This document shows positions 24,001-34,341 of a DNA stretch of 52,213 nt, one piece after another (position 1 is the stretch's first letter; each line of letters opens with the position of its first letter). Location: NCBI GenBank assembly GCA_031261485.1, contig JAISJO010000028.1, forward strand, positions 1 to 52,213. Reading direction: 5' to 3'. The DNA comes from Propionibacteriaceae bacterium. Lineage in GTDB: Bacteria; Actinomycetota; Actinomycetes; Propionibacteriales; Propionibacteriaceae. The notes beneath the pieces are model-generated. The model did no database searches. It was not told where the DNA came from and worked only from the letters and a program-made list of their open reading frames with translations. A program made the translations under genes and the position numbers.

Positions 24001-24673
24001 CGGGTGGGCGTACGACATCGGCTCGGGCGGTGTGGACCATGTGCTGGCGTCGGGCCGTGACGTGAATATCCTTGTCATGGACACTGAGGTGTACTCCAAC
24101 ACCGGCGGGCAAGCCTCGAAGTCGACCCCTTTGGGCGCTGTGGCCAAGTTCGCGGCGGCGGGCAAGAAGACCAACAAGAAGGACCTTGCTTTGCAGGCCA
24201 TCTCTTATGGCAACGTCTATGTCGCTCGTGTGGCGATGGGCGCCGACCCGCAACAGACCCTGCGCGCTTTCCGTGAGGCAGAGGCGTATCCGGGGCCGAG
24301 CCTCATCATCGCATACTGCCACTGCATCGCCCACGGCATCGACATGACCATGGGCCTCAATCAGCAGTACCGCGCGGTGAACTCGGGCCACTGGCCGCTC
24401 ATCAGGTACAACCCCGTGAAGCGTTGGGCCGGCGACAACCCCTTCCTGCTCGATTCGCCGCGTCCACGTCTGAAGATGAAGGATTACATCACCCGCGAAT
24501 TGCGGTACAAGATGTTGACCAATATCGACCCTGACGAGGCCGAACGCATGCTTGTACTAGCGCAACAAACCACGGACCAGCGCTGGGAACAGTACGAAGA
24601 AATGGCAGGCCGCAGCGCCGACCACTTCGCGTCAGACGCCCAAGCCGACGACCTCAAGAAGTCAGCAGCGTAG
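21047..24673 (+). CDS. nifJ: Pyruvate:ferredoxin (flavodoxin) oxidoreductase
   Basis: Oxidatively decarboxylates pyruvate to acetyl-CoA and CO2 and reduces ferredoxin or flavodoxin. The 1208-residue single-chain homodimer type is full length. N-terminal pyrimidine-binding domain: YRCNELCSIYPITPSSTMAE. The two-cluster ferredoxin domain has CIQCGNCAFVCPHAVIR and CTGCGLCVAACPVTP. The C-terminal TPP domain has GACAGCGETPYVKLLSQLFG, ANATGCSSIYGGNLPTTPW and MDTEVYSNTGGQASKSTPLG. The ATG at 21047 is 1 nt after the flavoprotein stop, with GGAG upstream, so the two form an operon. The enzyme is oxygen-sensitive in most organisms and indicates anaerobic pyruvate metabolism. Confidence 0.98.
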   Translation: MTTDKTLGKRGIIDGNEAAASVAYRCNELCSIYPITPSSTMAEFADEWSAHKIPNIFGTVPTVIEMQSEAGAAGAMHGALQGGAMSTTFTASQGLLLMIPNMYKIAGELTSTVFHVAARSLAAQGLSIFGDHQDVMAVRQTGFALLSSASVQEAHDFALISQVATMESRVPFLHFFDGFRTSHEVNTLRLLSDDDLRSMVPVELVRAHRDRALSPEHPYIRGTAQNPDTYFQSRETVNPFYDKVPGIVESVMDRFSALTGRKYGLVEYHGDPQATAVTVVMGSGSQTVTETVDYLNAHGYKVGVLTVRLYRPWPAEAFLAVLPKTVRTIGVLDRTKEPGAGGEPLYLDVTTTVAEAYSAGTIENMPRIVGGRYGLSSKEFTPGMVKGIYDELAKKSPRPRFTVGINDDVSLLSIDYDVDFDIEDPKTTRAVFYGMGSDGTVGANKNTIKILGSTNPEGRDEPFFAQGYFVYDSKKSGSRTVSHLRFGPDPIRAPYLINKADFIACHQWSILERIDVLIYARPGTILLINSPYPDDEVFTHLPKPMQQKIIDLGVELYAIDANEVARAAGLGGRTNTVLQTCFFAISGVLPSDVAIGAVKASITKTYGKKSQEIVEKNHMAVDHSVAHLKKINVPAAPVSDEKFLEPVPQNAPEFVRNVTAQMILDKGNDLPVSSLPVDGSYPSGTTQYEKRNVSDIVAEWDSSQCIQCGNCAFVCPHAVIRAKYYSSDKLEGAPQGFKHAPLNAAGVPEGCYTLQVYAEDCTGCGLCVAACPVTPLKAPNRKAINLTTMLDKTEAKANVDFFETIPWNDRSRLDFGTVRGAQYLQPLFEFSGACAGCGETPYVKLLSQLFGDRATVANATGCSSIYGGNLPTTPWAKNGDGRGPAWSNSLFEDNAEFGLGLRLAADLQTELARTRLDAMRDVLGAELADSILQAPQQYESDIRKQFDRIEALKAKLAGLDTREAADLLSVADHLVRRSVWIVGGDGWAYDIGSGGVDHVLASGRDVNILVMDTEVYSNTGGQASKSTPLGAVAKFAAAGKKTNKKDLALQAISYGNVYVARVAMGADPQQTLRAFREAEAYPGPSLIIAYCHCIAHGIDMTMGLNQQYRAVNSGHWPLIRYNPVKRWAGDNPFLLDSPRPRLKMKDYITRELRYKMLTNIDPDEAERMLVLAQQTTDQRWEQYEEMAGRSADHFASDAQADDLKKSAA

Positions 24674-24685
24674 GTTGGATACGGC

Positions 24686-24934
24686 ATGGAGCACCATGGA
24701 GTTCGACGCATAACCCGTCGCCACGCAGGGAATCTGTTCCTGGGTCTTTCTGCCGCTTGTGTCCTGGGGATGATCGCGGCGATTGCCAGCAACTGGCATG
24801 CCATGTCGAAGACAGTGAACTCAATATCGACATGGCAGATGATCGAGGCGATGATGGTGCTCTTCCTGCCGCCTGCCGCCGTGTTGGCGCTTGTGGGGTT
24901 ACTACTGCGGAGAAGACGCAGCGAGCAGGCTTAG
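24686..24934 (+). CDS. Small two-helix membrane protein, function unknown
   Basis: 82 residues with two predicted helices (about 16-35, NLFLGLSAACVLGMIAAIAS, and about 52-74, IEAMMVLFLPPAAVLALVGLLL) flanked by basic ends (RRITRRH, RRRRSEQ). It starts 12 nt after nifJ stops and may be co-transcribed. No Shine-Dalgarno sequence is seen. Hydropathy and charge pattern look like a real protein, but no family is recognised. Confidence 0.55.
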   Translation: MEHHGVRRITRRHAGNLFLGLSAACVLGMIAAIASNWHAMSKTVNSISTWQMIEAMMVLFLPPAAVLALVGLLLRRRRSEQA

Positions 24935-25007
24935 CCTCCGCTGTCCTAATGCCTGGCTCTTGCCATGAGTACTTACTGAGCGTACGTGCCCGTGTGGAGA
25001 CCAGCTC

Positions 25008-25787
25008 TCACAGTCGTAGCGCAATCTCGACGGCCATCTGGATGTACCTCGCTCGCTGCTCGCGCGGTAGATTGCCCAGGATGCGGGGGTCCCATTCGTC
25101 TTCGGTCAGACTGTCAGCCGCGTACAGGAATTGGTGGATGGCGACATGGCGGAACTGAGCCAAGGCGGCCAGGGCCGAGGTTTCCATGTCTACGGCGATA
25201 CAGCCTTCGCTGACCCTCTTGGCCAGATTCGTGGTGGTTTCGCGGAAGAAAGCGTCGGTCGTCCACACCTTGCCCGACGTGTGCGGGATTGCCAACTCGC
25301 TCAGGATCTCGGCTGTCCTATCCGCAGTATCGACACTGATGTAGTCGCTCGCCGGGGCATAGTGGTAGCTGGTCCCCTCGTCACGATAGGCGGAGGTGGG
25401 GACAATGATTCCCTGCGCTGCCACGTTGGGGACGAGTGCGCCGCAGGAACCGAAGACCACGAAGGACCGTGTACCCAGGGCAATGGCCTTCTCTAGAACG
25501 GCTACTGTCGTGGGTGCACCGACTGGGCTGAGACAAGCGCCCAGGGTCGTCCCGCGATAGTCGAAGGTGTACGCCCGACCCGGATAGATCGGCAGATCCT
25601 GGTCAACAGCTTCCTCCAGGTACAAGTCGGCGATAGGTGTCACGGCGTACAACTCCAGCAGGACAGCGAAAGTCTTAGGCTGGAAGGTCACAATCATCGT
25701 CTCGGGGAAACTGGCGATATGGTGTGCCGTCTGATACGGGGAAATAACCTCCTCGCCGTCGGGGTCAAAGCTCTGCGTGATGGGCAT
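25008..25787 (-). CDS. Nucleoside phosphorylase (PNP/UDP family)
   Basis: Phosphorolysis of a purine nucleoside or uridine to base and (deoxy)ribose 1-phosphate. The 259-residue protein has family landmarks TLGACLSPVGAPTTVAVLEK, VVFGSCGALVPN, YRDEGTSYHYAP and IAVDMETSALAALAQF, the last containing the conserved Glu-Met-Glu-like ribose site (DMET). Substrate (uridine, purine or another) cannot be fixed by eye. The ATG at 25787 is chosen because AAGGAGG (25794-25800) sits six bases upstream; the ATG at 25793 directly abuts that motif and is unlikely. It is a single gene, 40 nt from the MazF-type toxin gene upstream. Confidence 0.87.
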   Translation of the reverse strand: MPITQSFDPDGEEVISPYQTAHHIASFPETMIVTFQPKTFAVLLELYAVTPIADLYLEEAVDQDLPIYPGRAYTFDYRGTTLGACLSPVGAPTTVAVLEKAIALGTRSFVVFGSCGALVPNVAAQGIIVPTSAYRDEGTSYHYAPASDYISVDTADRTAEILSELAIPHTSGKVWTTDAFFRETTTNLAKRVSEGCIAVDMETSALAALAQFRHVAIHQFLYAADSLTEDEWDPRILGNLPREQRARYIQMAVEIALRL

Positions 25788-25833
25788 GCGCATCCTCCTT
25801 GACGTTGGTGCCTGACCGCGTCATTCTATATCG

Positions 25834-26178
25834 TCAGCTGCCATATATCTCCTGCGTGGGGACGGGGCCTCCCATGAGGTAGGAGACGATCCGCTGAACA
25901 TGTGTGGTGTCGTAGCTTCGATGCTCGACTCGTGTGATTCGCTCTATGGACAGGGTACGCGGCTGCTCACATACGGCCCATGATCCTTCTGCGACCCTTA
26001 CTCGCGTCGGCCACGGCTTTTCTGCAGTGGTCAACGGCACGGTGATAACGAGTTTTCGGGCCCTATGAAAGCGCCTATCAGACAAAACGAGATGTGGGCG
26101 GTGTTTCGCCTGTTCTCGACCCTGCACCGGGTCAAGACTTGCCCAAATGAGGTCGCCTCTGTTGATTTCTCCTGTCAT
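25834..26178 (-). CDS. MazF/PemK-type endoribonuclease toxin
   Basis: 114 residues, the usual size. It opens RGDLIWASLDPVQGREQAKHRP followed by HLVLSD, the strand-loop signature in which PemK/MazF toxins bind RNA. VITVPLTTAEKPWPTRV and EQPRTLSIERI (conserved Gln plus Thr/Arg region) complete the fold. Sequence-specific mRNA cleavage and growth arrest are the known role of the family; cleavage specificity is unknown. The ATG overlaps the antitoxin stop by 4 bp (ATGA), giving the typical antitoxin-first operon. Confidence 0.92.
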   Translation of the reverse strand: MTGEINRGDLIWASLDPVQGREQAKHRPHLVLSDRRFHRARKLVITVPLTTAEKPWPTRVRVAEGSWAVCEQPRTLSIERITRVEHRSYDTTHVQRIVSYLMGGPVPTQEIYGS

Positions 26179-26456
26179 GGGCGTCTCTTCGTCCCGGTCA
26201 GCGAGCTAGACTCCTCCGCGTCGATGAGTGCGTCCTCTAGTGTGTAATCCTCATTGAGTTCGTCGCCGTCCGCCGCCAACATGGTGTGGTACTCCTGCGC
26301 AGAGGTCTCTTCCATCTGCTTCCAAAACAGCTCGTCAGCGAATCGGTTGAGGAGAACCTCGACAAGTCCCGACTGGGTTGTCCCTGCCCGGATGGCCGCG
26401 TCACGCAGTTGGTTCCGCACTTCGATGGGTACCTTGATGGATGTAAGAGTTGACAT
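26175..26456 (-). CDS. Ribbon-helix-helix antitoxin of the MazF pair
   Basis: 93 residues. The N-terminus STLTSIKVPIEVRNQLRDAA followed by GTTQSGLVEVLLNRF is a ribbon-helix-helix DNA-binding domain. The acidic C-terminus (GDELNEDYTLEDALIDAEES) is the expected toxin-binding part. The ATG at 26456 lies 6 nt from a perfect 15-bp palindrome, a likely autoregulatory site. An in-frame TTG at 26519 with AAAGGAG five bases upstream would add 21 residues and place the palindrome inside the gene; the choice is open. Confidence 0.85.
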   Translation of the reverse strand: MSTLTSIKVPIEVRNQLRDAAIRAGTTQSGLVEVLLNRFADELFWKQMEETSAQEYHTMLAADGDELNEDYTLEDALIDAEESSSLTGTKRRP

Positions 26457-26462
26457 ACCAGG

Positions 26463-26477
26463 AAGTATGTCATACTT
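26463..26477. promoter_or_regulatory. 15-bp perfect palindrome, antitoxin operator candidate
   Basis: AAGTATG-T-CATACTT directly upstream of the antitoxin ATG, in the promoter zone. RHH antitoxins typically bind such sites to repress their own operon. Confidence 0.6.
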
Positions 26478-26520
26478 GACATCCTCTGTGTGCTCTATCA
26501 CCGTGAGAGTCATCTTCAAT

Positions 26521-26670
26521 CAGTCTCCTTTCGTAGGTTGGTGGGTGTGGTGTTCCTGTGCGCCCCTCAAGAAGATAATGCGAAAATTGTGCACCGGCTG
26601 ACCGTTTACCCACAGGAAATCCTCAAACTCCGCGAAATTCGTCTATCTGTGGATAGCTCTGCTACCCGCG
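26521..26670 (-). repeat. Conserved toxin-antitoxin leader, copy A
   Basis: Resembles 29957-30105 over its length. Shared blocks on the plus strand are CTTTCGTAGG, CCTCAAGAAGA-AATGC, a TTAyCCACAGGAAA block and TGTGGATA-CTCTGCT. Here the two DnaA-box-like sites each carry one mismatch (TTACCCACA 26606-26614; TGTGGATAG 26648-26656). It lies directly upstream of the MazF antitoxin. Confidence 0.7.
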
Positions 26671-26700
26671 AGCCTTTGGGAAGATCCGTCCTCTCTTTAC

Positions 26701-26817
26701 CTACTTCGGAGTACTAAGAACGGTTTCTGCGGTGTAATCCAGTCGATGTCCTACGTGGTCCACACCGGCGATTGCGCAGGCAGCACGGATGGCATGTTCG
26801 AGCTGCGCACGGTTCAT
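26701..26817 (-). pseudogene. Truncated nucleotidyltransferase-type toxin remnant
   Basis: A 38-codon reading frame whose ATG overlaps the XRE gene stop (ATGA). Its start, MNRAQLEHAIRAACAIAG, looks like the first helix of the DUF6036-type nucleotidyltransferases that normally follow this kind of XRE gene. The sequence then loses any resemblance (VGHRLDYTAETVLSTPK) and stops. The expected continuation, around 150 residues, is missing. I infer a decayed toxin; the resemblance is from memory and should be tested by search. Confidence 0.5.
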
Positions 26818-27338
26818 GGTGTTCTCCATTGGCTCAGGACTTCTTGGCGTTCCGTGTCAGTCAGTACCCCCGCGAACGGCGATACGTCACGCATCTGCTG
26901 ACCGCGTTCAGTCGGGTCGAGAAGAGCCTCGCGGATAGCGCGAAGGTCTTGAGCATGAATGAGGTCGCGCCAGTACGCGATGTTGCCCGTATGCGGCTCA
27001 CCTCGGGAGTTCCGGGCAAGGTTGTCCAGATTACGCTCAATAGTGGGCACCCAGTTCTGGAAGGTCTTCTGGTCGAGATGGGAAGCTATTCGGCAATGCA
27101 GCATCCAACTCCGATGGTCGGACCTGTTCAAACTGACCGGCTCTGCGGACACTGTTTTCCGTAGCGAGTGACCAGTTCCATGTAGCAGAAAGCTGAGCAT
27201 GGTCTCGGACGGTTCGCGTTTGCCTGTGACATACTCGCTGATTCGCCCCTGGGCAACCCCCGTCATTTGAGACAGTTCCACCTGGGTCATGCCCGCCTGG
27301 TGCATGGCCTGGCTCAGCAGTGGGCCCACCTGATTCAC
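26814..27338 (-). CDS. XRE-type helix-turn-helix antitoxin/regulator
   Basis: 174 residues. The N-terminal HTH at about 8-50 (MTQVELSQMTGVAQGRISEY and VTGKREPSETMLSFLL) is Cro/cI-like. The C-terminal part (NWVPTIERNLDNLAR, AYWRDLIHAQDLRAIREALL, VLTDTERQEVLSQW) is typical of antitoxins paired with a nucleotidyltransferase. The GTG at 27338 follows TATATT-N6 (leaderless), and this -10 is inside a 25-bp palindrome, so autorepression is likely. The partner gene downstream is truncated, making this an orphan or domesticated antitoxin. Confidence 0.82.
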   Translation of the reverse strand: MNQVGPLLSQAMHQAGMTQVELSQMTGVAQGRISEYVTGKREPSETMLSFLLHGTGHSLRKTVSAEPVSLNRSDHRSWMLHCRIASHLDQKTFQNWVPTIERNLDNLARNSRGEPHTGNIAYWRDLIHAQDLRAIREALLDPTERGQQMRDVSPFAGVLTDTERQEVLSQWRTP

Positions 27339-27343
27339 AGTAC

Positions 27344-27368
27344 GAATATATCATGCGATGAGATATTC
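27344..27368. promoter_or_regulatory. 25-bp palindrome over the XRE gene promoter
   Basis: GAATAT and ATATTC ends with TCAT/ATGA inside; only one outer and one central pair fail. The minus-strand -10 TATATT (27350-27345) lies within it, six bases from the GTG at 27338. Confidence 0.65.
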
Positions 27369-27577
27369 AGAATCTGGGCGACACGACCGGACGCTAGCGA
27401 CACGAGACGAACTGATACAAGCAGATAAGGAGTGCCCTCCTCCGGTCACTACCCCCGCACGGGCAGGCTCTTGACTTCAACCAAAGTCGGCGGACTCTGA
27501 CCCATCCGCAGGGTGGTTCACCCCCAGTAGGCGCGGAGCACCAACCGGTACGCGGCGGGGACTATGCTGGCGCATAA

Positions 27578-27631
27578 ATGAACGCAAATGATGCGCAGGG
27601 GTACCAAGAACACGTACGGAATCGGATGTAG
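27578..27631 (+). CDS. Micro-ORF A, 17 codons, upstream of zinc-ribbon gene
   Basis: ATG to TAG encoding MNANDAQGYQEHVRNRM. The copy at 30259-30312 has 51 of 54 bases identical; two of the three changes are synonymous and one changes Tyr to Asp. TATGCT stands nine bases before the ATG in this copy and TACGCT nine bases before it in the other, so the transcript would begin next to the start codon. The stop is 20 nt from the next ATG, just before a strong GGAGGAGG. It may be a leader peptide, a microprotein, or part of a structured leader. Real translation is not proven. Confidence 0.5.
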   Translation: MNANDAQGYQEHVRNRM

Positions 27632-27651
27632 CTTCGGAGGAGGACTTCTCA

Positions 27652-27915
27652 ATGGAAATATGGCAGATTGTTCTGATAGTCGTAGGCGCGGTATTTGCAC
27701 TTTGGGTCGTTGCCTGGATAGTAAACTCTGTGGCCTCGTTTCTCTACAAGCAACAATTCACCCGGTTTTACTGCAAGAATTGCCGGGAGCAGTTCGAAGT
27801 GAGTAAGAAGCAGTACAAAGAGAGGGGTGCGGGATGGAGGACGGCAATAACAATCTGCTGCCCACACTGCGACCATGTGGTTGCCTATGGTGACCCATTC
27901 CAACTCCTTCGTTAA
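27652..27915 (+). CDS. Small membrane-anchored zinc-ribbon protein, copy A
   Basis: 87 residues. One membrane helix (about 5-32, rich in Val/Ile/Ala/Trp), then a cytoplasmic part with CKNC (about 41-44) and CCPHC (about 69-73), two knuckles that could bind one zinc as a zinc ribbon. The ATG at 27652 has GGAGGAGG 8 nt upstream. The paralogue at 30333-30593 keeps all four zinc ligands and about 40 of 86 residues. No function is known. Placement next to toxin-antitoxin genes in both copies suggests a shared mobile or defensive role, but this is inference only. Confidence 0.75.
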   Translation: MEIWQIVLIVVGAVFALWVVAWIVNSVASFLYKQQFTRFYCKNCREQFEVSKKQYKERGAGWRTAITICCPHCDHVVAYGDPFQLLR

Positions 27916-27927
27916 CGAGAACCCGCA

Positions 27928-28167
27928 ATGCCAGGAGTCATGGACGAACATTTCAACGCAGCGCTGAGGAAGGAAATCATCGAGGCAACTCCCGATGAGC
28001 GTTCCCAAGCGCGCGACCCTATCGACGCGCTTGATCCAGCACCGGCATACTTCACTGATGCTGAAAAGAGTCTGATTACTGAGCGGGCAGCAGGCTTGGA
28101 TGAAGGCAGACACGTAGGACGCCCTTGGCGTGAATCCCTCGCCGCGCTGCGAAGTAGCCTCGCGTGA
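27928..28167 (+). CDS. Putative antitoxin of a ParE/RelE-type pair
   Basis: 79 residues, acidic in the centre (ATPDERSQARDPIDALD), ending GRPWRESLAALRSSLA. The stop overlaps the GTG of the ParE-like toxin by 4 bp (GTGA), the standard antitoxin-toxin layout. No clear DNA-binding fold is recognised, and the family is not identified. It may start at ATG 27928 or 27940; the sequence around the first start (GCAATGCCAGGAGT) is repeated after the second zinc-ribbon gene. It is 12 nt downstream of zinc-ribbon copy A and may share its transcript. Confidence 0.6.
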   Translation: MPGVMDEHFNAALRKEIIEATPDERSQARDPIDALDPAPAYFTDAEKSLITERAAGLDEGRHVGRPWRESLAALRSSLA

Positions 28168-28471
28168 AGCGAACCGTCGTAACCCACGAGGACTTCGATG
28201 CCGATGTCGCTGCGGCGGCGGCGTGGTATCGGGATGTGTCACCCCGAACAGCCTTGGGTTCTTCGTCGTGTTGGGGAACCGCCTCGATCTCGTGGAGTTG
28301 TTCCCTGAATCAGGCAGTACGACATTTGCCACCTGTCAGAACTGCGGGCTGCGACAATTCCCGTATCTGCTGATTTACCGACTGACACCGGATACCGTAC
28401 AGATGCTCGGTCTGCTGCCGTCGCGCCGAGACCCTGAGTGGATTCAGCAGCAGGTTGAATCACGAAGTTGA
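28164..28471 (+). pseudogene. ParE/RelE-type toxin, frameshifted
   Basis: Starts GTG at 28164 and reads KRTVVTHEDFDADVAAAAAWYRDVSP, the first helix of a RelE/ParE toxin, then loses sense after about codon 28. The rest of the fold continues in another frame from about 28250: GFFVVLGNRLDLVELFPESG..., LRQFPYLLIYRLTPDTVQML and SRRDPEWIQQQVESR, ending at the TGA 28469-28471. One missing base (or two extra) near 28238-28262 would restore one frame. No slippery heptamer is seen there, so this looks like an inactivated toxin or a sequencing error. Confidence 0.7.
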
Positions 28472-28486
28472 TGGGGCGCGGGTCGA

Positions 28487-28492
28487 TAAGCT
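28487..28492 (+). promoter_or_regulatory. -10 element (TAAGCT) for leaderless NERD gene
   Basis: TAAGCT, six bases, GTG at 28499. Confidence 0.5.
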
Positions 28493-28498
28493 GTGTAC

Positions 28499-29227
28499 GT
28501 GGATATGACTGACGCCCTCCTTGGCTTTGCTATTCCAGTACTCATCGCCCTTGGGGCAGTCGCGCTTGTTGGCGTACTCGTCATAAGAGGTATTCCTCTT
28601 ATGCTGGACAGGAGACGGTATTACCGCTCTGCTTATGCTGGGATTACTGAAACCACGTGGACGGCTGCGCGCAAAGACGAGGGCCTACGCGGCGAATACC
28701 AACTCACACGTGAACTGGAACGCATTGCTGGACACAAGCGTTTTCTCTGTAATTGCTACGTCCCCAAAGAGGATGGCACCACGAGCGAGATTGATGTCCT
28801 CATGATCACTCAGGCGGGCATCTTCGTGTTTGAGATGAAGAACTATTCCGGTTGGATTTTCGGGTCACAGGACGATTACCAATGGACACAAGTGTTCCCG
28901 AACAAGCGCAAGGAACGGTTCTACAATCCGCTGAAACAGAACGCCACACACGTCCTCACCCTGCAGCGATACCTCCAAGGCTTCGGCCCAATCCCGTACT
29001 ATCCCATTGTCGTGTTTGGGAGGCAATGCACATTGAAGAAGGTGACTGTCAGCCCTGAGTCTGTGGTGCTCCCGCTGGATTCAGTGGGTCGTGTTGTGCA
29101 GACCCTCGGCTATCCTGTTCTCACCGAGTATCAAGTCGACATGGTGTGGTCCCAGCTCGCACCGCTGACGCAAGTCAGTCCGGAAATCAAGAACGCGCAC
29201 ATACAGCGAGTGTCTAGATCTCGGTAG
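28499..29227 (+). CDS. NERD-domain membrane-anchored nuclease-related protein
   Basis: About 242 residues. A membrane helix (about 7-32, GFAIPVLIALGAVALVGVLV) is followed by a NERD domain: GEYQLTRELERIAGHKRFL, TSEIDVLMITQAGIFVFEMK (Asp plus Glu-x-Lys of the PD-(D/E)xK fold) and NYSGWIFG, ending around residue 200. The domain is related to restriction-type nucleases and occurs in plasmid and defence contexts; activity here is unproven. The GTG at 28499 fits TAAGCT-N6; GTG 28493 is an alternative. It lies between toxin-antitoxin cassettes. Confidence 0.85.
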   Translation: MDMTDALLGFAIPVLIALGAVALVGVLVIRGIPLMLDRRRYYRSAYAGITETTWTAARKDEGLRGEYQLTRELERIAGHKRFLCNCYVPKEDGTTSEIDVLMITQAGIFVFEMKNYSGWIFGSQDDYQWTQVFPNKRKERFYNPLKQNATHVLTLQRYLQGFGPIPYYPIVVFGRQCTLKKVTVSPESVVLPLDSVGRVVQTLGYPVLTEYQVDMVWSQLAPLTQVSPEIKNAHIQRVSRSR

Positions 29228-29349
29228 CCTGCTACCTTGCGTCACTGGGTGCAACTGCGCGCCATGGCGAGGGAGTCTCGTCATGACATCCCATCGCTAC
29301 CTTTCTGAAAAGAGCCGATACGAGCAGGCATCCCTCGTCTAGCAATTCC

Positions 29350-29616
29350 CTAGTTATCGTCGTAGTGGCCCCGGCATTGGTTGACTTGAATGGTCCCGTC
29401 AGCCAGGACGCGATAGACCAGCCGATTCTTCTCATCTATGCGACGCGACCACCATCCGGCCAGATCACCTGTCAGGGCTTCGGGATTGCCAATCCCTTGA
29501 TTCCCATTTCGGGCGATGTCATCCAACAGACGGTTGATGCGCTTAAGCGTTCTCCGGTCCTGAAGCTGCCACCACTGATACTCAGACCAACTCTCAGACT
29601 GAAAATCAAGGTTCAT
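29350..29616 (-). CDS. yoeB: YoeB/Txe-type mRNA interferase toxin
   Basis: 88 residues, full length. It aligns with YoeB: WSEYQWWQLQDRRTLKRINR, GIGNPEALTGDLAGWWSRRI and CRGHYDDN. The catalytic residues are in place: Glu46, Arg65 and the C-terminal His84 (E. coli YoeB Glu46, Arg65, His83). Toxins of this family cleave mRNA at the ribosomal A site. The ATG overlaps the antitoxin stop by 4 bp. No truncation is seen, so this pair appears functional. Confidence 0.93.
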   Translation of the reverse strand: MNLDFQSESWSEYQWWQLQDRRTLKRINRLLDDIARNGNQGIGNPEALTGDLAGWWSRRIDEKNRLVYRVLADGTIQVNQCRGHYDDN

Positions 29617-29885
29617 TCCATCGCCCGCAACTCATCCATCGTCTTGCGGATGACTTGACCCTGCTCGAACTGCCCGATGCCGCGCCTCAGAGCTGCAAGA
29701 TTCGACTCACTGTAGAACGGGTCAGGTTCGGCTTCCAGAGCAAAGGGGATGCTGCGGGTCCGCACAACGGCCTTGAGGAAGACGTTCATCGCCGCCGTGA
29801 GACTCAGACCAATCTCGTCAAGCACGCTCTGGGCACTCGCCTTCACATCGTCGTCAATCCTGACAGTCACAGTAGATGTAGACAT
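29613..29885 (-). CDS. RelB/DinJ-type antitoxin of YoeB
   Basis: 90 residues. It starts STSTVTVRIDDDVKASAQSV, the RelB/DinJ ribbon-helix-helix strand and helix, followed by LDEIGLSLTAAMNVFLKAVV and a C-terminal toxin-binding part (QFEQGQVIRKTMDELRAME). YoeB is more often paired with YefM, so a RelB/DinJ partner is a family exchange worth noting. The ATG at 29885 is set by AGGAG seven bases upstream. An inverted repeat TACTGC-N7-GCAGTA lies 25 nt further upstream. Confidence 0.9.
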   Translation of the reverse strand: MSTSTVTVRIDDDVKASAQSVLDEIGLSLTAAMNVFLKAVVRTRSIPFALEAEPDPFYSESNLAALRRGIGQFEQGQVIRKTMDELRAME

Positions 29886-29909
29886 TAGTATGCTCCTAGA
29901 TGCTGTTTG

Positions 29910-29928
29910 TACTGCAACTCTAGCAGTA
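29910..29928. promoter_or_regulatory. Inverted repeat, RelB operator candidate
   Basis: TACTGC (29910-29915), seven bases, GCAGTA (29923-29928), just upstream of the antitoxin ribosome-binding site and containing TAGAGT on the minus strand as a possible -10. Confidence 0.55.
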
Positions 29929-29956
29929 TCCGCATATGTATCCTTATTCCAAGTCA

Positions 29957-30105
29957 TAGGCCCCTTTCGTAGGCATTGGAGGTTGTTATGCTGCGCGCGC
30001 CTCAAGAAGAGAATGCAGAAAGATCGCACCCCAAAGCCACTTATCCACAGGAAACCCTCATGCTCAGTGAGTCCTCGACACGTGTGGATAACTCTGCTTC
30101 ATAAC
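29957..30105 (-). repeat. Conserved toxin-antitoxin leader, copy B, with two DnaA-box matches
   Basis: Counterpart of 26521-26670. It contains TTATCCACA (30041-30049) and its inverse TGTGGATAA (30083-30091), both exact matches to the E. coli consensus DnaA box, 33 bp apart. The two can also pair as a 9-bp stem. It lies upstream of the RelB-YoeB operon. The gene-free stretch 29886-30258 consists of this block, the RelB operator and the start of duplicated unit B. Confidence 0.7.
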
Positions 30106-30258
30106 GGATTCTCAGCTACCTGATAGGAGGTGATAGAACCTGATGAGGAGTGTCTCGTCCTTGGCCACTGGCTCCCGCAGGGGCGGCTTGACTTCGACGA
30201 GAGGCTGGGGACTCGGGTCTACGCGGAGCATGCGAACCGGTGTTACGCTGATGCATAG

Positions 30259-30312
30259 ATGAACGCAAATGACGCGCAGGGGGACCAAGAACACGTGCGG
30301 AATCGGATGTAG
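30259..30312 (+). CDS. Micro-ORF B, 17 codons, upstream of zinc-ribbon gene
   Basis: Encodes MNANDAQGDQEHVRNRM, ATG to TAG. It differs from micro-ORF A at three bases only. TACGCT lies nine bases before the ATG. GGAGGAGG follows the stop, and the zinc-ribbon ATG is 20 nt after it. The conservation exceeds that of the downstream gene, which argues that this short segment is under selection as peptide, RNA or DNA. Confidence 0.5.
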   Translation: MNANDAQGDQEHVRNRM

Positions 30313-30332
30313 CTTCGGAGGAGGTCTTTTCC

Positions 30333-30593
30333 ATGGGAATATTGCAGATTGTACAGATAGTCATAGTCGCGATATTTGCACTTCTTGTCGTTGTCTGGAT
30401 GGTAAAGCGTGTGGTTTCGTTCTTCCACCGTCTGCAATTCCTCCGGTTTACTTGCGGGCATTGCGGAGAGGATTTCGCAGTGAACAAGAAGCAATTCAAA
30501 GAGGCTGATGGGAGATTTAAGCCCATACTGGAGGTTGATTGTCCACGCTGCGGTTGGGTGGTTGCTTCTGGTGATTGGTTGCTTTTCTTGTAG
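30333..30593 (+). CDS. Small membrane-anchored zinc-ribbon protein, copy B
   Basis: 86 residues: a membrane helix (about 5-32), then CGHC (about 41-44) and CPRC (about 70-73). It is a paralogue of the 27652-27915 product; the helix, the four cysteines and NKKQFKE are kept, while most other positions differ. ATG with GGAGGAGG upstream. It stands between the RelB-YoeB leader and the MerR gene. No function is recognised. Confidence 0.72.
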   Translation: MGILQIVQIVIVAIFALLVVVWMVKRVVSFFHRLQFLRFTCGHCGEDFAVNKKQFKEADGRFKPILEVDCPRCGWVVASGDWLLFL

Positions 30594-30605
30594 CAAGAAT
30601 CTGCA

Positions 30606-30722
30606 ATGCCAGGAGTTGAGGGCCAACAGTTCATCCCAATGCTGGAGAAGGCGAGTTCGCGCTGCCGTACATGGGTGAGTGCCTGCCTTCGTCCGACGAT
30701 TGAAGTCTCAATACCCCCCTAG
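30606..30722 (+). pseudogene. Possible remnant of the antitoxin gene after zinc-ribbon copy B
   Basis: A 38-codon frame starting MPGVEGQQFIPMLEKASS, at the position where copy A has the gene starting MPGVMDEHFNAALRKEII. Shared positions (MPGV, F, L, K) and the identical bases around the start suggest common origin. The rest has no counterpart. Weak evidence. Confidence 0.3.
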
Positions 30723-30734
30723 AGCATCCCAATT

Positions 30735-30766
30735 TTGACTCTCCGGTAAGGGGAGGGGTGATTGTG
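30735..30766 (+). promoter_or_regulatory. MerR-type promoter with dyad in the spacer
   Basis: TTGACT (30735-30740) is followed by CTCC-GGTAAGG-GGAG (30741-30755), an imperfect dyad filling a spacer of about 19 bp before a weak -10 (GATTGT, 30760-30765). A long spacer filled by a dyad is the usual site for MerR-family activators. Confidence 0.5.
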
Positions 30767-30797
30767 GATGTACCGGAACGACTGGGAGGATGGAATC

Positions 30798-31601
30798 GTG
30801 TATCGGATCGGGGAGTTCTCGAAGCTCGGGAAGACGACAGTCAAGACCTTGCGTTACTACGACGAGGTGGGGTTGCTCAGCCCTGCCGATGTGGACGAGT
30901 GGAATGGGTATCGCTACTACAGTGCTAGCCAATTGTTCGACTTGTACCGCATCGTCGCGCTTCGCCAGATCGGGTTTTCGATTGACGAAATACGCCAGTT
31001 GGCGACTGCGCAATCTCTCGACCTCATCGAACGCCGCCGCGAAGAACTCGCCCACCAACATGCGACTCTGACCGATCAGTTGTCCCGGCTCGACCATTAC
31101 CTATCTATCCAGAAAGAGGGTCTAGCCATGAGCTACGACGTCATCATCAAAACCATTCCGGCATCGAACATTTTCAGTAGCCGCCAGGTACTTCCCAACT
31201 ACTCCGACCTTGGCGCTGCCATGATGTCCATTGGCGCGAAAATCTCCGCCGACAATCCTGGTATCTGCTGCCCAGAACCGGGGTACTGCTGCGCGATTTA
31301 CCACGACGGCGAGTACAAGGAACACGACATCGATGTGGAGATCTGCCAGGAGACCGACAAGCTCGGCAAGGACGGGGACGGTTACACCTTCCGTGTCCTG
31401 CCCGAAGCCCAAGTTGCCGCAGTGCTGCACCGTGGGCCGTACGACACCATCAGCGCCGCGTACGCTTACCTGTTCGATTGGGTCACCAAGAACGGCTACA
31501 CCATCGCCGATTCCCCGCGCGAAAGTTACATCGACGGTCCCTGGAGCTTCGAGGACCCGGCCCAGTGGCTGACTGAGGTACAGGTGCCCGTCACAAAGTA
31601 A
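30798..31601 (+). CDS. MerR family regulator with GyrI-like effector domain
   Basis: 267 residues. The N-terminal MerR domain has YRIGEFSKLGKTTVKTLRYY, DEVGLLSPADVDEWNGYRYY and LRQIGFSIDEIRQL; a coiled coil follows (about 80-112, LIERRREELAHQHATLTDQL), then a C-terminal GyrI/BmrR-like ligand domain (RVLPEAQVAAVLHRGPYDTISAAY, written as RGPYDTISAAY, and YIDGPW). The architecture is that of multidrug-responsive regulators such as BmrR. GTG 30798 is chosen for GGGAGGA seven bases upstream. No target transporter is adjacent, so it probably regulates itself or a distant gene. A stem-loop terminator follows the stop. Confidence 0.9.
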   Translation: MYRIGEFSKLGKTTVKTLRYYDEVGLLSPADVDEWNGYRYYSASQLFDLYRIVALRQIGFSIDEIRQLATAQSLDLIERRREELAHQHATLTDQLSRLDHYLSIQKEGLAMSYDVIIKTIPASNIFSSRQVLPNYSDLGAAMMSIGAKISADNPGICCPEPGYCCAIYHDGEYKEHDIDVEICQETDKLGKDGDGYTFRVLPEAQVAAVLHRGPYDTISAAYAYLFDWVTKNGYTIADSPRESYIDGPWSFEDPAQWLTEVQVPVTK

Positions 31602-31617
31602 ACGACAGGCAAAAGGC

Positions 31618-31651
31618 GAGGCCGCCTCGGACTTAGTCAAGAGGCGGCCTC
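31618..31651 (+). terminator. Stem-loop terminator after the MerR gene
   Basis: GAGGCCGCCTC (31618-31628) and GAGGCGGCCTC (31641-31651): an 11-bp perfect stem with a 12-base loop, followed by TCCTCT rather than a clean U-run. Confidence 0.75.
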
Positions 31652-31718
31652 TCCTCTACGTCTGCCGCAGAGCGAACATGGGATGGTGACCCACCCAGAC
31701 GGAAGTGGTCTCACCTGT

Positions 31719-31861
31719 CCAACTTTGGCCTAGTCCGTACGTTCTCGGCACTGGGCCACGATGTGTGTACAAAGTTAGCTCGAAAATCGGCCTGGAACCG
31801 GCGAACTCTGATCCAAGACCGTTGCCGACCACAGAATCTGCACGAACATGGCCAAAGTTGG
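31719..31861. mobile_element. MITE-like 143-bp inverted-repeat element
   Basis: Perfect 12-bp ends CCAACTTTGGCC (31719-31730) and GGCCAAAGTTGG (31850-31861). Similarity continues inward with mismatches for about 20 more bases. There is no open reading frame of note inside. No target duplication is obvious, so this could also be a large hairpin RNA. The gene-free stretch 31652-32131 consists of this element, the one at 31901-32014 and a REP variant. Confidence 0.45.
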
Positions 31862-31900
31862 CCGCCAACGCCAATTGGGAACCCTAGCACCCGCCTGTCA

Positions 31901-32014
31901 GCGTGTGGATGGGGCTTCGTTCGCCGAGCGTAAAACGGCAGCGCAGGAAGTGACGGAGCCGAAGGCGGAGGCAGTTCCGTGAGCGAGCTCAAGAACGATG
32001 CCCCATCCGCACGC
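31901..32014. repeat. Long imperfect inverted repeat
   Basis: GCGTGTGGATGGGGC (31901-31915) pairs with GCCCCATCCGCACGC (32000-32014) with one mismatch; with the adjoining TTCGTTC the arm reaches 22 bases with two mismatches. The inside is purine-rich with further short dyads. No coding capacity is seen. Confidence 0.5.
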
Positions 32015-32074
32015 GCAGTACGTGAGCCCCTTCAAGACATACCCCGCCAGACATCGGGCATACAGGTTTGAATT

Positions 32075-32114
32075 GGATACTGCGACTCCGTTTCACTCCA
32101 CGCAGCATGACGGG
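32075..32114. repeat. REP-like element, long-loop variant
   Basis: GGATACTGCGACTCCG, loop TTTCACTCCA, CGCAGCATGACG: the same arms as the other REP-like copies in this window but with a longer loop. This is the form widespread in many bacterial genomes. Confidence 0.6.
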
Positions 32115-32131
32115 GACTCTCCTGTACAACC

Positions 32132-32167
32132 CAGTACGCCGTCCACCCGAAGGCGAACGGCGTACTG
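32132..32167 (-). terminator. Stem-loop terminator of the mut operon
   Basis: CAGTACGCCGT (32132-32142) and ACGGCGTACTG (32157-32167), an 11-bp perfect stem with a 14-base loop, just beyond the mutB stop (32188) in the direction of transcription. Confidence 0.75.
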
Positions 32168-32187
32168 AAAGGAAAGGAACAAAGCCT

Positions 32188-34341
<2,154 letters not shown>

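Follow-up and report, generated by a model that had tools for sequence, protein, structure and literature searches.

The question raised by this locus is why a frame of only 17 codons should occur twice, almost unchanged, ahead of two genes whose products are poorly alike. The window, i.e. the whole stretch of 52,213 nucleotides that was analysed, forms contig 81 in the 2.8-Mb draft assembly of a Propionibacteriaceae bacterium. A preliminary description of this DNA had reported the frame MNANDAQG(Y/D)QEHVRNRM at two places, and we confirmed it at 27578-27631 (micro-ORF 1, MNANDAQGYQEHVRNRM) and at 30259-30312 (micro-ORF 2, MNANDAQGDQEHVRNRM), both on the + strand.

Two near-identical micro-ORFs and their signals

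The two copies are identical at 51 of 54 bases. They differ at 27592 (T/C, synonymous), 27602 (T/G, Tyr to Asp) and 27616 (A/G, synonymous), and two synonymous changes among three are too few for a test. When the peptide was searched against its own genome the good matches were these two sites only (E about 1e-11 and 1e-12), the three others having E values of 1.08-2.28.

The signals around the frames were also found as first reported. Two + strand hexamers, TATGCT in unit 1 (27563-27568) and TACGCT in unit 2 (30244-30249), each end nine bases 5' of the micro-ORF ATG; we consider them putative -10 boxes of the TAnnnT type, the consensus given in the available parts of a Propionibacterium acnes start-site paper (PMC3848588). 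The Shine-Dalgarno-like run GGAGGAGG lies 3' of each micro-ORF stop, at 27636-27643 in unit 1, 8 bases 5' of the gene 1 ATG, and at 30317-30324 in unit 2, again on the + strand. In both units the stop precedes the start of the next gene, i.e. it ends at 27631 with the ATG at 27652 in unit 1, and the corresponding positions in unit 2 are 30312 and 30333.

Immediately 5' of micro-ORF 2, at 30130-30261, there are two overlapping + strand frames. One of them stops (TAG) right against the micro-ORF 2 ATG; the other overlaps micro-ORF 2 as ATGA and has AGGAGG 12 bases 5' of its own ATG. By eye, the counterparts of these two frames are not intact in unit 1.

The duplicated units and their genes

Judged from the alignment, both micro-ORFs sit in an old duplication (about 27438-27975 versus 30148-30651) that spans the micro-ORF, the downstream gene and the beginning of the next ORF. 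Its core of 273 bases is ungapped, 79% identical and contains both micro-ORFs. The duplication extends past this core at both ends, a feature that was absent from the preliminary description. The upstream parts of the two units (27438-27562 and 30148-30243, + strand) can be aligned only with large gaps: the comparison of 27438-27577 with 30148-30258 has 79 identities, 20 mismatches and 53 gap positions, and its score of 78.8 compares with a maximum of 51.8 among 300 single-base shuffles. The stretch from the -10 box through the micro-ORF aligns gap-free, whereas the sequence directly upstream takes several gaps. On the 3' side of the core, a 61-base block that is 74% identical covers the beginning of the next ORF.

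The gene that follows the micro-ORF encodes an 87-residue protein in unit 1 (gene 1, 27652-27915, + strand) and its 86-residue paralogue in unit 2 (gene 2, 30333-30593, + strand). Inspected by eye, both proteins have a hydrophobic N-terminus and both CxxC pairs, in gene 1 as a CxxC...CPxC ribbon. The Pfam zinc-ribbon matches were all sub-threshold, the best being Zn_ribbon_3 in gene 2 at 23.6 bits (cut-off 27). The poor resemblance noticed earlier between the two proteins was borne out, since they are 48% identical with 41 of 87 columns invariant. The differences between the genes fall on 25 first, 30 second and 29 third codon positions over 86 codons. The protein thus seems to be diverging fast or to be little constrained, yet the frame and the cysteines are kept.

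The next ORF of unit 1 (27928-28167, + strand) encodes 79 residues. It gave no Pfam family at E<=5 and weak matches (E about 1e-3) in two of the 18 other genomes of the genus, and from general resemblance we take it to be antitoxin-like. It is followed by what are probably the remains of a toxin gene (28164-28471, + strand), a broken frame present in pieces only, with two stops in the first-frame translation; the label toxin is again our assumption from general resemblance, and the pieces, searched separately, matched no toxin family. In unit 2 a short ORF (30606-30722, + strand) matches the start of the 27928 ORF in its first codons, then diverges and stops after 38 codons as against 79 in unit 1. 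It is probably a truncated remnant.

Conservation along the duplicated unit

In the preliminary description the local conservation of the micro-ORF was taken to imply selection on the peptide, the RNA or the DNA itself. The comparison of the two units does not bear this out, since the lead of the micro-ORF over the gene's first 60 bases is not significant and since the best change point lies inside the gene. Identity declines gradually from the micro-ORF into the gene, i.e. to 17/20 between the stop and the next ATG, 50/60 over the first 60 bases of the gene and 124/200 over the next 200, and there is no drop at the micro-ORF end. The micro-ORF plus spacer is better kept than 249 bases of the gene (68/74 versus 170/249, p = 1.9e-5) and than its first 100 bases (p = 0.013). 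Against the first 60 bases there is no significant excess, either for these 74 bases (p = 0.18) or for the 54-base micro-ORF (p = 0.080). In other words, the 5' half of the unit is well kept and the micro-ORF is at its peak, without forming a sharp island. As far as the sequence goes, one genome with two copies does not suffice to establish selection on the peptide, the RNA or the DNA. The case also holds a lesson of method: where identity is graded along a duplication, a short segment at its peak can be highly alike in two paralogues without any selection on a peptide.

Such a gradient could come from a duplication that is itself a mosaic, in which the 5' part was gene-converted or is younger than the ribbon part and the micro-ORF is a bystander that may be neither translated nor functional. 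We consider this, the main rival of the explanation given below, possible, if on balance doubtful. It is favoured by the position of the best single change point, 27726, with 86.5% identity before and 60.2% after it (likelihood ratio 31.6), and by the small improvement, a likelihood ratio gain of only 2.7, that is obtained when a micro-ORF term is added to a linear decay. Differences show no excess at third codon positions in either part of the gene (3, 6 and 4 by codon position in the better-kept part, 22, 24 and 25 in the rest). This points to relaxed or fast divergence of the protein and not to strong purifying selection, so constraint at the protein level does not explain the better-kept part. 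Silent change is likewise similar in the micro-ORF and in the gene, at 2/14 versus 6/38 of the codons that keep their amino acid and at 1/6 versus 2/17 of the fourfold sites. On the other hand, the micro-ORF is still the peak of identity and its leader is free of the gaps seen upstream. Permutation tests also favour a real peak: over 349 positions the named segment had a probability of 1e-4 and the best of all 54-base segments one of 9e-4, and when the test was confined to the 273-base core the values were 0.022, 0.0036 and 0.0058 for the best segments of 54, 74 and 89 bases.

A candidate leaderless upstream ORF

The observed anatomy, duplication and identity profile can also be read in another way, which is the explanation we lean to, tentatively and with a probability just short of an even chance: a near-leaderless upstream ORF would channel ribosomes to the downstream gene at the head of a small duplicated operon, the peptide itself being probably incidental. 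Each copy would be the 5' head of such an operon. By the P. acnes spacing, the TAnnnT promoter would start the transcript about 3-4 bases 5' of the micro-ORF ATG, and the 17-codon upstream ORF would be read by leaderless-type initiation. Its ribosomes would terminate 20 bases 5' of the next ATG, just ahead of a strong Shine-Dalgarno site, and would favour translation of the membrane/zinc-ribbon gene via coupling or reinitiation; for this the exact peptide would probably not matter. The copies would be alike because of one duplication, after which the ribbon half diverged more than the 5' half with its promoter, upstream ORF, ribosome site and membrane segment. The earlier suggestion of a nearly leaderless first ORF followed by a normally initiated second one is therefore plausible in its outline, which fits what is known from P. 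acnes and mycobacteria, and it is the promoter, the translation of the micro-ORF and the coupling that we infer. The micro-ORF is probably a leaderless upstream ORF of the ordinary kind already known from other actinobacteria.

In support of the leaderless upstream ORF, both copies agree in the -10-like box, its spacing, the frame, the stop and the ribosome site, and the leader is gap-free. The placement of the box is rare, since a TAnnnT ending 5-9 bases 5' of an ATG was found for 17 of the 847 + strand ATGs in the window, both micro-ORFs being among them. Codon use points the same way. The codon score of micro-ORF 2 is 0.126 in frame and beats all five other frames (best 0.021), and that of micro-ORF 1, at 0.000, exceeds both other + frames and practically equals the best - frame (0.001); for reference, 51-mers of ten long genes gave 5-95% ranges of -0.06 to 0.44 in frame and -0.63 to -0.01 when shifted. 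GC at third positions exceeds that at second positions in both (9 versus 5 of 16 codons in micro-ORF 1, p = 0.14; 11 versus 5 of 16 in micro-ORF 2, p = 0.04). In three presumed non-coding stretches, however, an excess of at least 5 of 16 was seen in 70 of 665 stop-free 48-mers, the excess being 4 in copy 1 and 6 in copy 2. Taken together, codon use and the -10-like box are suggestive and modestly favour translation of the micro-ORF.

Published leaderless starts provide further support. According to the available parts of the P. acnes study (PMC3848588), the TAnnnT box is centred at about -9, 50 annotated starts overlap the transcription start site and 88 more lie within 10 nt of it. The box at about -9 and a start codon within 10 nt of the transcription start would be shared with our units; the difference is that the P. 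acnes leaderless mRNAs are those of annotated genes, whereas here we deal with a 17-codon ORF in another genome. The leaderless small ORFs of mycobacteria (Shell et al. 2015, PMC4633059, in its available parts) are alike in that a short ORF at the 5' end precedes an annotated gene and coupling was proposed. Among 220 leaderless small ORFs of M. tuberculosis there are 23 whose end overlaps the following gene as RTGA, above the level of random sites, whereas our micro-ORF would stop 20 bases 5' of the next ATG; translation was measured there and is deduced here. The polycysteine leaderless attenuators of mycobacteria (Canestrari et al. 2020, as cited in the available text of PMC9031893) likewise place a short leaderless ORF ahead of an operon, but the micro-ORF peptide has neither cysteine nor a run of one residue.

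Several observations argue against a leaderless upstream ORF. The frame is short and exists in only two copies. A -35 element was not recognised, and a sigma-70-type scan of 26800-31200 returned 0 promoters as against 2.6 expected from shuffling. The in-frame codon score of the downstream genes is low, and the opposite strand is equally kept (see below). As for the coupling, the good Shine-Dalgarno site could be sufficient by itself to initiate the gene that follows.

If the micro-ORF is translated, it adds another leaderless short ORF ahead of an accessory operon. Short upstream frames may be overlooked in the family of P. acnes, as the terms small ORF, leader peptide and uORF do not occur in the available parts of the P. 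acnes start-site paper (PMC3848588).

The micro-ORF peptide and its relatives

A different explanation is that the peptide itself is selected, either as a sensory leader acting by ribosome stalling or amino-acid-responsive attenuation, or as a microprotein partner of the membrane protein. We regard this as improbable. A point in its favour is the single replacement among about 41 replacement sites. At the replacement rate of the gene, 0.304, about 12 would be expected, and the binomial probability of one or fewer is 6.7e-6, a value whose reference rate comes from the entire gene downstream, a region that is different in any case, and that rests on three changes in all. Silent change in the micro-ORF is not clearly reduced (two in about 10 sites against a proportion of 0.364 in the gene, p = 0.23). 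A working precedent for a sensory leader exists in the toiL uORF of the E. coli topAI-yjhQ operon (PMC12121999, in its available parts), which also precedes an operon with toxin-antitoxin-like genes; toiL, however, differs in having a Shine-Dalgarno site of its own together with a repressive hairpin, and the micro-ORF gives no signal of such a hairpin.

An amino-acid-responsive attenuator leader finds no support in the peptide, which lacks a residue run, and a stalling switch of the erm or toiL type finds none in the folding results. Folding of six pieces was no better than that of shuffles (z -0.22 to 0.91). When the folding was constrained by a ribosome placed on codons 1-15, access to the ribosome site was predicted to stay nearly the same, at 0.37-0.50 in unit 1 (free 0.47) and 0.33-0.42 in unit 2 (free 0.40), and it rose only where the placed ribosome itself covers the site. 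Predicted access to the start codon in unit 1 was 0.20-0.50 at codons 1-12 and 0.70-0.82 at codons 13-15 (free 0.63); unit 2 did not follow the same pattern (0.39-0.59, free 0.42). These predictions are compatible with simple translational coupling.

The search for homologues of the segment and of the peptide, which had been proposed as a check, gave none beyond the window's own genome in the genomes searched. At E<=0.01 the peptide matched one of 195 genomes of the family and one of 364 of the class, in both cases its own, i.e. it does not have the spread of a conserved microprotein. A degenerate pattern of 11 peptide residues had 0 exact matches in genome_contigs and viral_contigs, and no relative of the peptide was found in viral_contigs. 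At the DNA level, the own genome matched fully among 96 genomes and six others had matches of 22-29 bases (E 0.017-0.063), in sets that may omit records very near this genome. A full-text literature search did not find the exact peptide. According to the available parts of PMC9094748, most newly found short ORFs of M. tuberculosis are without a sign of purifying selection and 90 show it.

Including its own genome, the membrane protein matched 1/198 genomes (those of the family) at E 0.001, 1/394 at 0.01, 4/391 at 0.05 and 18/296 at 0.05, in four sets that overlap. A profile search returned a 78-residue protein (L014:1489-1725, E 1.8e-4) of genome G013, which belongs to the same genus. This protein, too, has two CxxC pairs and an N-terminus that is hydrophobic. 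It is a weak relative of gene 1 in a different neighbourhood, and no micro-ORF was seen upstream of it; it starts 15 bases 3' of a gene that we take, from general resemblance, to be an ABC-transporter permease gene. Of the 17 matches in other genomes in the set of 296, 10 lie in open frames of over 200 residues and the best (E 2.9e-4) has an internal stop. The set of 391 gave two matches in other genomes besides that of G013, and among all these weak matches it was the G013 protein whose sequence was examined. No relative was found with the protein pair in 135 stretches of genome_contigs, nor any in 210 and 16 stretches of viral_contigs, and solved structures gave 11 matches up to E 1, the best at 0.073. 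A phage or plasmid origin was rejected, since phages gave no match and plasmids one 36-base chance match; at the DNA level unit 1 was compared with plasmids only and unit 2 with phages only. A system in which a selected peptide, as sensory leader or microprotein, acts together with a membrane zinc-ribbon protein that evolves fast, and which is present in two copies, restricted to one lineage and linked to toxin-antitoxin genes, is, in our estimate, very improbable.

RNA structure and the opposite strand

The constraint might also act on the DNA or RNA or on the opposite strand: the segment could contain an RNA element or the operator of a regulator encoded nearby, or the antisense strand could be coding across micro-ORF and gene. 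This, too, we hold to be improbable. It would account for the identity that continues over the bases between the stop and the next ATG, and a candidate regulator is encoded nearby, the helix-turn-helix gene (26814-27338, - strand, HTH_3) that is divergent to unit 1; the repeats of 24500-33000 include no second copy of this gene. A small inverted repeat at 27582-27596, within micro-ORF 1, has a terminator-like score on the - strand and differs by one base in unit 2, but terminator-like sites are no commoner than in shuffles (3 versus 3.1). An RNA element was rejected, since the folding gave no signal and Rfam, searched at E<=5 over 26800-31200, gave a single match, which is below threshold and at another place.

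The opposite strand deserves closer attention. The codon scores of genes 1 and 2 are low in their own frame (-0.088 and -0.048) and slightly below those of the opposite-strand frame of matching phase (-0.028 and 0.042). That frame runs open across the gene in each copy, and on either strand 40 of 83 residues are kept. The corresponding - strand open frames, at 27649-28332 and 30243-30626, lie opposite both membrane-protein genes. Pfam assigned them to no family, with one weak match at E 0.18, and no Shine-Dalgarno-like run was seen before their listed starts. We prefer the sense strand because of the strong ribosome site before the ATG, the two CxxC pairs, the weak relative in the genus and the excess of GC3 over GC2 in genes 1 and 2 (p = 0.007 and 0.010). 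The opposite-strand result nevertheless lowered our confidence in the leaderless upstream ORF slightly, from an even chance to just below it, and made constraint on the DNA, the RNA or the antisense strand a little less improbable than it had seemed before.

Genomic setting

The units lie between a gene at 25008-25793, presumably that of a nucleosidase-like protein, and one at 32188-34341 that presumably encodes methylmalonyl-CoA mutase. Between these flanks there are genes for a PemK/MazF-type toxin, the helix-turn-helix protein, the two units, a NERD-domain protein, a YoeB/RelB pair and a MerR/GyrI-type regulator. Both flanking genes are found in 11 other genomes of the genus. In three of these they are on the same contig and in opposite orientation, spaced by 1.4 kb (G003), 1.6 kb (G001) and 3.1 kb (G006), as compared with 6.4 kb and the same orientation in the window; the remaining eight have them on separate contigs, possibly through assembly breaks. 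Ten proteins of the region, compared with eight stretches downstream of the mutase gene, matched none at E<=0.01. From this comparison we infer that the region of the units is accessory. The part of the window from 25834 to 31601 is rich in toxin-antitoxin genes, i.e. the PemK/MazF type, YoeB/RelB and the probable remains of another pair.
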